Shown one piece after another: positions 9,573 through 18,845 of a stretch of 64,000 nucleotides of DNA (position 1 is its first letter; the number at the start of each line of letters is the position of its first letter). The translations under genes were made by a program, and so were the position numbers. The DNA is from an uncultured beta proteobacterium. Its GTDB lineage: Bacteria > Pseudomonadota > Gammaproteobacteria > Burkholderiales > Burkholderiaceae_C. The notes beneath the pieces are model-generated. The model was not told the DNA's origin. It did no database searches and saw nothing but the letters and a program-made list of their open reading frames with translations. The stretch lies in assembly GCA_903938815.1 (NCBI GenBank), contig CAJAES010000030.1:1-64000 (forward strand), written 5' to 3'.

Positions 9573-9657
9573 TGGTGCCGACGGCGAGACTCGAACTCGC
9601 ACAGCTTTCGCCACTACCCCCTCAAGATAGCGTGTCTACCAATTTCACCACGTCGGC
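9573..9657 (-). tRNA. tRNA-Leu, anticodon GAG
   Basis: An 85-nt type II tRNA read on the minus strand. The acceptor stem is GCCGACG (9657-9651) pairing with CGTCGGC, discriminator A, and CCA is encoded (9575-9573). The D-loop contains TTGGTAGAC. The anticodon arm is CTATC-TTGAGGG-GGTAG with anticodon GAG, which reads CUU/CUC Leu codons. A variable arm and GTTCGAGTC T-arm follow. It sits between secG and nuoA, the usual betaproteobacterial place. Confidence 0.95.
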
Positions 9658-17241: not shown

Positions 17242-18282
17242 TCAGGCCACCGCCACGGCCTCGAGCGGCCAGCGGGGATGCACGTCGAACGCCGCGTCGG
17301 GCTCCGGCACCAGCAGCCCGTGCTGCCAGCGCAGAGCCGCGGCCAGCGCGATCATGGCACCGTTGTCGGTGCACAGCGCCGGCGGGGGATAGTGGACCCT
17401 GGCGCCACGCCGGGCGGCCTGCCGGTCCAGCGTCTCGCGCAGCATCGCGTTGGCGCCGACGCCGCCGGCCACCACCAGGCGCCGCAGGCCGGTGTCCTTC
17501 AGGGCGCGCATCGACTTCGCGACCAGCACGTCGACGATGGCCTCCTGCGTGGCGGCCGCCAGATCGGCGCGCGACTGATCGCAGACGTTGTCGCCGAGCT
17601 TCTGCACGCGCGTCATCACGGCGGTCTTGAGCCCCGCGAAGGAAAAGTCCAGGTTGCCGCTGTGCAGCAAGGGACGCGGCAGCTCGAAGGCGGCGGCGTT
17701 TCCGAACGCCGCCAGCCGCGCGAGAGCCGGGCCGCCGGGGTAGCCCAGCCCCAGCAGCTTGGCGCTCTTGTCGAAGGCCTCGCCCGCGGCGTCGTCCACG
17801 GTCTCGCCGAGCAGCTCGTAGCGGCCGACGCCGTCGACCCGCATGAGCTGCGTGTGCCCGCCCGAGACCAGCAGTGCAACGAACGGGAACTCCGGGGCGT
17901 CGTCGGCCAGGAACGGCGAGAGCAGATGGCCCTCTAGGTGGTGCACGCCGAAGGTGGGCCGCTGCAGCGCCGCCGCCAGGGCCACGGCAACGCCCGCGCC
18001 GACCAGCAGCGCCCCGGCCAGGCCAGGACCGCGCGTGTAGGCGATCAGGTCGAGATCGCCGAGCGCCAGCCCGGCTTCGGCCAGAACCTGGCGCGTCAGT
18101 GGCAGCACGCGGCGGATGTGGTCCCGGGAGGCCAGTTCCGGCACGACGCCACCATAGGCCTCGTGCATCTCGGCCTGGCTGTGCAGCGCCTGCGCGAGCA
18201 GGCGTGGCACGCCGGGTCCTTCGCAGCGCACCAGGGCCACGCCGGTTTCATCACAGGAGGATTCGATGCCGAGAACGTTCAC
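17242..18282 (-). CDS. tsaD: tRNA N6-threonylcarbamoyladenosine transferase TsaD
   Basis: Transfers the threonylcarbamoyl group to A37 of ANN-decoding tRNAs with TsaB and TsaE. The 346-residue ASKHA-fold protein starts [18 protein letters not shown], the family signature. The metal-binding pair is His115/His119 (VHHLEGHL), and [11 protein letters not shown] near residue 318 carries the third metal ligand Asp. The ATP-binding loop [10 protein letters not shown] is present. All key residues are intact. Upstream (18283-18506) is an intergenic region with a candidate plus-strand RNA. Confidence 0.97.
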
Positions 18283-18298
18283 GCGCCCATTGTCGCCC

Positions 18299-18334
18299 GG
18301 GAAGTACTGCGGGAAGTACTGCGCGAAGTCTCCC
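18299..18334 (+). repeat. Tandem 12-bp repeat upstream of the candidate sigma-54 promoter
   Basis: Two exact tandem copies of GGGAAGTACTGC (18299-18310 and 18311-18322) are followed by a degenerate third unit (18323-18334). Each exact copy contains the palindrome AGTACT. The block lies 66-101 bp upstream of the predicted start of the plus-strand RNA, where enhancer sites often sit, and 17 bp from the tsaD start on the other strand. Confidence 0.7.
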
Positions 18335-18372
18335 GGTTCGTCTCGAAGGGCCTCGCCCCGGACGGGCCGGCG

Positions 18373-18390
18373 CTGGCACGCGCCCTGCTA
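18373..18390 (+). promoter_or_regulatory. Candidate sigma-54 (RpoN) promoter
   Basis: CTGGCACG-N4-CTGCTA matches the -24/-12 consensus TGGCACG-N4-TTGCW with one substitution in the -12 element. The GG (18375-18376) and GC (18387-18388) doublets are exactly 12 bp apart, as required. The predicted start is near 18400. It faces away from every nearby gene and towards an intrinsic terminator about 60-90 bp downstream. Confidence 0.5.
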
Positions 18391-18399
18391 AGAGAGCAG

Positions 18400-18490
18400 A
18401 GACGGCGACTTGTCGGCGTCAGTCTGTCTCCTCAGCAGGGCGGCGAGCCCTTGTTCAACCTCCCGGCGTCAAACCCGGGAGGTTTTTTTT
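18400..18490 (+). ncRNA. Candidate small RNA between tsaD and fdx
   Basis: A transcript of about 91 nt would run from the sigma-54-like promoter to the intrinsic terminator. It can fold into three hairpins: GACG.CGA-CTTG-TCG.CGTC (18401-18420, one G/G mismatch), GGGC-GGCGA-GCCC (18438-18450) and the terminator stem. Between the first two lies a pyrimidine-rich segment, TGTCTCCTCAG (18425-18435), with a CTCCT anti-Shine-Dalgarno-like core. No start codon with a ribosome-binding site is seen. It lies wholly between two minus-strand genes. I know of no named family it belongs to. Confidence 0.45.
18457..18490 (+). terminator. Intrinsic terminator, plus strand
   Basis: AACCTCCCGG (18457-18466) pairs perfectly with CCGGGAGGTT (18475-18484) around an 8-nt loop, and T residues run from 18483 to 18490. 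The T-tract is on the plus strand; on the minus strand only two T residues follow the stem. It therefore serves a plus-strand transcript better than the fdx mRNA, although weak bidirectional use is possible. Confidence 0.8.
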
Positions 18491-18506
18491 GGTGCACCGA
18501 ACCAGA

Positions 18507-18845
18507 TCAGTGCTTTTCCTTGGCGTGATTGATCGAGTACTTGGGGATCTCGATGGTCACGTCCTTGTCCGACAGGATCGCCTGGCACGACAGGCGCGAC
18601 GTGGGCGACAAGCCCCAGGCACGGTCGAGGAGGTCTTCCTCGGCTTCGTCCATCTCGCCCAGGGAGTCGTAGCCTTCCTTCACGACGACGTGGCAGGTGG
18701 TGCAGGCGCACACCATGTCGCAGGCGTGCTCGATGGCGATGCCGTTCTCGAGCAGCGCCTCGCAGATGGAGGTGCCGCGCGGGGCCTCGATGGAATCACC
18801 CTGCGGGCAATATTCCGCGTGGGGAAGGATCTTGATGATGGGCAT
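18507..18845 (-). CDS. fdx: ISC-system [2Fe-2S] ferredoxin
   Basis: Electron donor for Fe-S cluster assembly on IscU, 112 residues. Ligands are Cys42, Cys48, Cys51 and Cys87, the same positions as in E. coli Fdx, with the additional conserved Cys46 (HACDMVCACTTCH). The adrenodoxin-like acidic surface (LGEMDEAEEDLLDRAWGLS) for partner binding is present. It is the last gene of the isc operon, 11 bp after hscA. No iscX gene follows. Confidence 0.96.
   Translation of the reverse strand: MPIIKILPHAEYCPQGDSIEAPRGTSICEALLENGIAIEHACDMVCACTTCHVVVKEGYDSLGEMDEAEEDLLDRAWGLSPTSRLSCQAILSDKDVTIEIPKYSINHAKEKH

Follow-up and report, generated by a model that had tools for sequence, protein, structure and literature searches.

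The closest described systems are summarised here from extracts of the cited papers. According to these, NtrB/C and RpoN induce NrsZ of P. aeruginosa when nitrogen is limiting; this RNA has a length of at least 226 nt, lies in the ntrC-PA5126 spacer, activates rhlA and carries the conserved motif ACAGGCAG (PMC9308961). The small RNA described here, from a 64,000-nucleotide stretch of DNA that was analysed as a whole (the window), is like NrsZ in having a sigma-54 promoter and a nitrogen link, but its predicted length is about 91 nt, its seed is CUCCUC and its neighbours are different, and the NrsZ motif was not seen by eye in 18400-18490. The analogy to NrsZ drawn in a preliminary description of the locus is nevertheless apt, with NtrC-type dyads and a nitrate-type ABC transporter neighbour providing the nitrogen link. 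CrcZ of Pseudomonas is given in the same extracts as RpoN-dependent, 407 nt long, in need of CbrA/CbrB and acting by binding Hfq (PMC9308961). It shares the RpoN-type promoter with the window RNA and differs from it in these other respects, and no Rfam match to CrcZ was found in the window.

Other small RNAs are comparable in their seed. In Bordetella, S17 pairs at ribosome-binding sites and in this way represses the gene of a sigma-54 activator, and probably those of transporters as well; its long form starts from a sigma-A promoter (extracts of PMC11722255). As far as the extracts of the two sources go, RF02278, S17 and Burkholderia bdhR1 are built like the window RNA, with UGUCUCCUC in a CU-rich single strand followed by a hairpin and a terminator (PMC11722255, PMC5688073). 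The RF02278 hairpin, CCACCUCCUC..GGUGGA, is unlike that of the window RNA, and its members were seen without -24/-12 elements. NcS25 of Burkholderia cenocepacia is an 84-nt small RNA with a 7-nt seed predicted to occlude the Shine-Dalgarno sequence; in the part of its source used here it adjoins a porin gene and has no sigma-54 motif upstream (PMC10117139). It resembles the window RNA in its predicted Shine-Dalgarno-blocking seed and differs in promoter and neighbour. In Enterobacteriaceae, a small RNA is released from the mRNA of glutamine synthetase (extract of PMC9731577); like the window RNA it is nitrogen-linked and close to a gene of nitrogen assimilation, but it derives from an mRNA 3' end, whereas the window RNA has its own promoter.

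The locus occupies the 224-bp gap at 18283-18506 between tsaD and fdx, both on the minus strand (Table 1). The extent of this gap had been given correctly before, and the two gene names are the earlier assignment combined with our reading of the proteins. The plus-strand -24/-12 match is TGGCACGCGCCCTGC at 18374-18388, in the 12-bp GG-GC register previously claimed for it, with CTGC as the -12 element. The earlier estimate that fewer than one such match is expected in the window was overstated, as TGGCAYNNNNNYTGC was found once against 1.21 expected from shuffles, and GGCACNNNNNTTGCW with one mismatch four times against 11.2 expected. On its own, the promoter match is no rarer than chance, and its significance comes only from conservation. 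The predicted transcription start at about 18400 was placed 12 nt past the -12 GC, and the 3' end at the last T of the run. The terminator, with the 10-pair stem and eight T of the preliminary description at 18457-18490, begins 68 bp beyond the promoter. Its T-run is present on the plus strand only, and a terminator search found one against 0.3 expected in 1.2 kb.

Table 1. Positions of the small-RNA gene, its parts and its neighbours in the window
Feature	Position	Strand	Details
tsaD	17242..18282	-	5'-side neighbour in Rubrivivax-type loci; 24/72 loci
Sigma-54 (-24/-12) promoter TGGCACGCGCCCTGCT	18374..18389	+	GG 18375-18376, GC 18387-18388; from sequence and conservation
Predicted small RNA, 91 nt	18400..18490	+	covariance-model matches 18400-18491 and 18403-18491
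Hairpin 1 (GACG...CGTC, inner CGA...TCG)	18401..18420	+	6/6 modelled pairs double-changed, 69 distinct sequences
Single-stranded linker	18421..18436	+	holds seed TCTCCTCAG (18427-18435), complementary to Shine-Dalgarno GAGGAGA
Hairpin 2 (AGGGC-ggcga-GCCCT)	18437..18451	+	2/5 modelled pairs double-changed; 96.2% of cells paired
Intrinsic terminator	18457..18490	+	stem-loop 18457-18484, eight T 18483-18490; 8/8 modelled pairs changed on both sides
Candidate NtrC-type enhancer region	18491..18514		half-sites GGTGCACC and one-mismatch dyad 18499-18513 overlapping the fdx stop
fdx, 2Fe-2S ferredoxin-like gene	18507..18845	-	convergent neighbour; <=300 bp from promoter in 49/72 loci

Conservation was assessed at the level of the genus and of the family. 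A DNA search of 61 relatives gave matches in 21 genomes, and 17 of the 24 loci (own copy included) span the RNA; the seven short matches that did not cover it were dropped (L016, L018, L019, L021-L024). GGYAY-N5-NTGC is found at the same place in all 17 genus-level loci, with TTGC in 15 of them, and GGYAY-N5-YTGC in 16, the exception being L002 with GTGC. A covariance model, R2, was then built from six genus-level loci using the RNA only, without the promoter (an earlier model, R1, was set aside for its poor RNAalifold structure). R2 had matches in 116 of 399 family genomes, a figure in which weaker matches are mixed and which is not a count of true members. The best 30 matches, which include the own copy and none of the six model sequences, were fetched and provide an unbiased test of the promoter. 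The 50 nt before the RNA contain a -24/-12 promoter in 30/30 under the loose pattern and in 26/30 under the strict pattern GGYAY-N5-TTGC, compared with frequencies of 0.004 and 0.0008, respectively, in random 50-nt windows of the same loci. The four loose promoters read CTGC (own copy), ATGC (twice) and TTGA (once). The GG lies 25-26 nt ahead of the RNA start in 20 of the 30 and 27-44 nt ahead in the rest. Twenty weaker matches (E 5e-6 to 5e-4) consisted of nine with promoter and seed, six judged RF02278-like by eye and five with neither.

A larger set of 72 loci was selected by the promoter and seed pattern, after removal of two Chloroflexi loci, and the letters of promoter and seed are therefore conserved in it by construction; two model matches with variant letters, L038 (TTGA) and L048 (TTCCTCAG), are outside this set. 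The base after GGCAY, a position free of this selection, is a purine in 72/72 loci.

Three hairpins form in the minimum free energy fold of 18395-18495 (-43.9 kcal/mol, z -2.77; equalled by 2 of 200 shuffles), in agreement with the 91-nt, three-hairpin RNA proposed earlier. The structure was further evaluated in an alignment of 70 of the 72 loci (69 distinct sequences; L083 and L095 left out), which also omits three R2 matches, namely the RF02278 RNA L058 (E 0.0003) and two antisense stretches. In this alignment 97.8% of the cells in the three hairpins pair, compared with at most 58.7% when the partners were slid. Double changes occur in 16/19 pairs, giving 184 compensatory cells against 43 (SD 7.7) in shuffles; fitting the alignment to the model biases it towards pairing, yet the contrast with the shuffles is very large. 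In hairpin 2, one G-C pair is reversed to C-G in two sequences. The terminator T-run is present in the homologues, and the eight T of the window copy would give a U tail, a feature of Hfq-type RNAs. The check proposed for this RNA at the outset, whether relatives keep the promoter doublets and the stems, thus had a positive outcome: the promoter is conserved, and all three hairpins show compensatory changes.

In the same fold, UCUCCUCAG is unpaired between the first two hairpins. Its nine columns are 96-100% identical across the 70 homologues, partly due to the way the loci were selected; the 30 RNA-only model matches, selected without a seed pattern, show CTCCTCAG or near variants. The CTCCT segment, said before to be exposed, is indeed unpaired between hairpins and is the most conserved part of the RNA. 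Promoter, RNA, terminator, structure, seed and conservation can all be read from the DNA, as can the presence of rpoN and ntrC in the genome. The conserved promoter and the covariation support the original reading as a sigma-54-dependent small RNA, and on this sequence evidence 18374-18490 is very probably a real gene of that kind.

The range of the RNA was examined with several searches. A scan of 84,980 genomes for GGCAY-N5-YTGC-N20-50-TCTCCTCAGYAGGG matched 58 loci, of which 56 belong to Rubrivivax, Piscinibacter, Rhizobacter, Methylibium, Aquabacterium, Azohydromonas, Aquincola, Albitalea, Leptothrix and further beta-/pseudomonadotal assemblies; Rubrivivax gelatinosus DSM 1709 is one carrier of the RNA (L092). 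The other two, from Chloroflexi, are alike each other and without the terminator structure, and were read as chance. Within the genus, the RNA is found in 20 of 38 genomes and the other 18 gave no match; a second match in one genome (G002, L348) was false, and L335 is a shortened locus representing the same site as L002. Order-wide, 5 of 399 genomes matched at E 0.001; the own genome and a family member (G151) are real, and the other three matches were rejected, being without promoter and seed. Among the 10 of 40 matching plasmid records that were listed, matches lie only inside tsaD. As far as searched, and within these genomes, the RNA family appears to be restricted to the Rubrivivax-Leptothrix group.

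No Rfam 15 family matched the RNA at its gathering threshold, and no earlier record of it was found in Rfam 15 or the open-licence literature. The lowest sub-threshold E values in 18250-18540 were those of anti-hemB (0.043; 18.4 of 49.5 bits) and NsiR1 (0.12; 19.4 of 39 bits). A tRNA gene at 9576-9657 (-) is the sole Rfam match at gathering score in the whole window. The RNA would be a new family of a known kind.

Concerning its regulation, the genome encodes rpoN (TIGR02395, 435.9 bits, cut-off 277.35) and ntrC (TIGR01818, 687.3 bits with its neighbour in frame, cut-off 558.6). The NtrC dyad motif is GCAC-N7-GTGC. With up to one mismatch, it occurs within the stretch of about 65 nt that follows the terminator in 34 of 58 loci, where dinucleotide shuffles give 6.5 (SD 2.3), fdx having been trimmed only where its end was recognised. 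Among 11 other spacings, an excess over the expected 6 or so is also seen for 9 (17 loci), 11 (13) and 2 (12), and the remaining ones occur in 2 to 8 loci; the half-sites therefore do not form an N7 dyad alone. In a set of 32 gaps bounded by the fdx stop, the N7 dyad is present in 19 against 3.0 expected, and other spacings in 0 to 9; the loci are related and not independent trials, and spacing 7 still stands out. No such enrichment of the N7 dyad is seen in the 77 nt upstream of the small RNA (4 loci). Downstream placement of an enhancer is unusual.

The amtB loci were used for comparison. An exact GCAC-N7-GTGC lies 71-104 bp ahead of a -24/-12 match in 10 of 30 of these loci, some of which end too soon to show the dyad region; the positives are 7 of 17 genus loci, the own genome included, and 3 of 13 loci of other families. 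The own-genome amtB-locus promoter, GGCACGGAAGCTGC, has CTGC like the promoter of the window small RNA. A dyad search of the own genome gave 29 sites compared with 11 for the reversed pattern, and no -24/-12 match lies beside the 15 dyad places that were fetched; this count was given no weight, and the amtB loci took its place. Given the N7 enrichment behind the terminator and the dyads of the amtB loci, NtrC control of the small RNA is probable for the family and less certain for the window copy, whose own site is poor.

We considered it rather unlikely that the small RNA is instead activated by another enhancer-binding protein, with the GCAC/GTGC half-sites as repeats or as sites of another factor. 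The weak dyad of the window copy (one mismatch, relatives being stronger) and the 24 of 58 loci without a dyad would fit such an activator, as would several other genome-encoded proteins that match the central part of the ntrC model. The half-sites GGTGC/GCACC at 18491-18506 and in the relatives' gaps also form an outward GTGC-N5-GCAC in 6 of 32 gaps against 0.2, which a single NtrC dyad does not explain. However, no other spacing comes near the enrichment of 7, also with fdx excluded; 7 is also the spacing of the dyads that precede sigma-54 promoters at amtB loci, and a nitrate-type transporter is among the neighbours.

These neighbours were compared across the 72 loci. On the 5' side, 24 loci have tsaD and 31 have a nasD-type gene that runs in the direction of the RNA. 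Three nasD-type products that were scanned matched TIGR01184, nitrate ABC transporter ATP-binding protein, at 340-345 bits (cut-off 291.8), and the remaining ones were assigned by tblastn. Where the stop codon of the transporter gene is visible, it lies at most 33 nt before the promoter GG or overlaps it. In about two fifths of the loci, the RNA thus stands behind a nitrate-type transporter gene, for which cyanate or similar substrates are also possible. By Pfam, genes for GAF-domain proteins, a CheX-like protein and a TPP-enzyme are further 5' neighbours (L007, L063, L042, L116), which suggests that the 5' side was rearranged while the fdx side mostly stayed. The convergent fdx is seen within 300 bp of the promoter in 49 loci, farther away in 6 and not at all in 17, mostly short ones.

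The arrangement in the 31 transporter loci would also suit an RNA that RNase E cuts from the transporter mRNA, as its 3' untranslated region with the operon's terminator, in the manner of GlnZ, the small RNA of the glnA mRNA in Enterobacteriaceae, and both sources may coexist there. As the sole origin this is very unlikely, since the promoter is present in both the tsaD and the transporter contexts, and where tsaD is the upstream gene, as in the window, it points away from the RNA, which only its own promoter can then produce. Even less probable is an action in cis, as antisense control of the end of the fdx transcript: the closeness of the convergent fdx in most loci speaks for it, but fdx is farther away in six, the predicted RNA ends before fdx and its most conserved part is the unpaired seed. 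Finally, a chance promoter match beside a terminator serving the convergent fdx transcript can practically be dismissed. A promoter alone is expected about once per window, but the T-run is confined to the plus strand, conservation extends to promoter, seed and compensatory pairs, the promoter is kept upstream of RNA-only model matches and fdx is farther away in six loci.

The genome contains a separate gene of the RF02278 (toxic sRNA / S17) type at C107:73647-73708 (-), and one RF02278 match was found in 8 of the 9 genus genomes searched (L055-L058 and L060 in relatives). Genus members L055 and L058 read TGTCTCCTCCACCTCCTC..GGTGGATTC and have UGUCUCCUC in common with the window RNA. None of the eight Rfam matches of 18250-18540 up to E 10 is RF02278, nor does this family match at gathering score anywhere in the window, and -24/-12 elements are absent in 6/6 RF02278-like RNAs of the family. 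A tentative reading, which we hold to be possible rather than probable, is that one anti-Shine-Dalgarno seed, UGUCUCCUC, serves in two small RNAs under different switches, the RF02278/S17 type without sigma-54 elements and the window RNA under sigma-54/NtrC. Nitrogen starvation might then call its own copy of a general translation brake, with the NtrC enhancer downstream, in the gap towards the convergent neighbour, because the upstream side is coding.

Targets were sought as CTGAGGAGA-N3-10-ATG in 17 genus genomes, 16 of which had matches, and 60 of the 78 listed places were compared by protein; three of these lacked a usefully long ORF. Just one gene came up in more than three genomes, a cynS-like gene in five, which we take to encode a cyanase. 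It was rejected as evidence for a target, as its start overlaps the stop of a preceding ATPase-like frame in the one operon inspected, so that the matching letters are also coding. At L261:2898-6489 (G000:C40), a transporter operon, presumably of the cyanate/nitrate type, has a cyanase-like last gene, with CTGAGGAGA inside the preceding reading frame. The start of a gene whose product matches the central part of the ntrC model (L295/L302, G000:C80, near 52988) reads GAGGAGACAG, complementary to the small RNA, and this is the class of target reported for S17. Of the 11 orthologues listed, the own gene among them, 4 retain GAGGAGAC and 5 GAGGAGA, so that this gene is suggestive at most as a target. 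The target scan and the orthologue comparisons gave no target with conserved extended pairing, the recurrent matches being due to coding or ordinary Shine-Dalgarno conservation. By analogy with S17 and NcS25, the window RNA is probably, though less securely than its NtrC control, a blocker of GAGGAGA-type starts.

Taken as a whole, the reading we prefer, and consider likely, is that of a small RNA activated by NtrC and sigma-54, induced by nitrogen limitation and blocking Shine-Dalgarno sequences; for expression, NtrC as the activator, Hfq, target class and mechanism we infer the following. A free-standing gene would be read rightwards, starting at its sigma-54 promoter and stopping at its own terminator. 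When nitrogen is limiting, transcription would be started by phosphorylated NtrC, which probably binds dyads immediately behind the terminator and would reach the sigma-54 polymerase by looping. The RNA of about 91 nt would present the unpaired segment CUAUCUCCUCAG or CUGUCUCCUCAG between two hairpins. This seed, together with a U-rich tail suited to Hfq, would pair with GAGGAGA-type Shine-Dalgarno sequences and repress a set of mRNAs, as published for Bordetella S17 and Burkholderia NcS25.

If this is true, the Rubrivivax-Leptothrix group gains a nitrogen-responsive small RNA comparable to NrsZ, and the locus would be a naturally occurring example of an NtrC enhancer that lies behind its gene. 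It would also become testable whether one anti-Shine-Dalgarno seed serves under two promoters in one cell.
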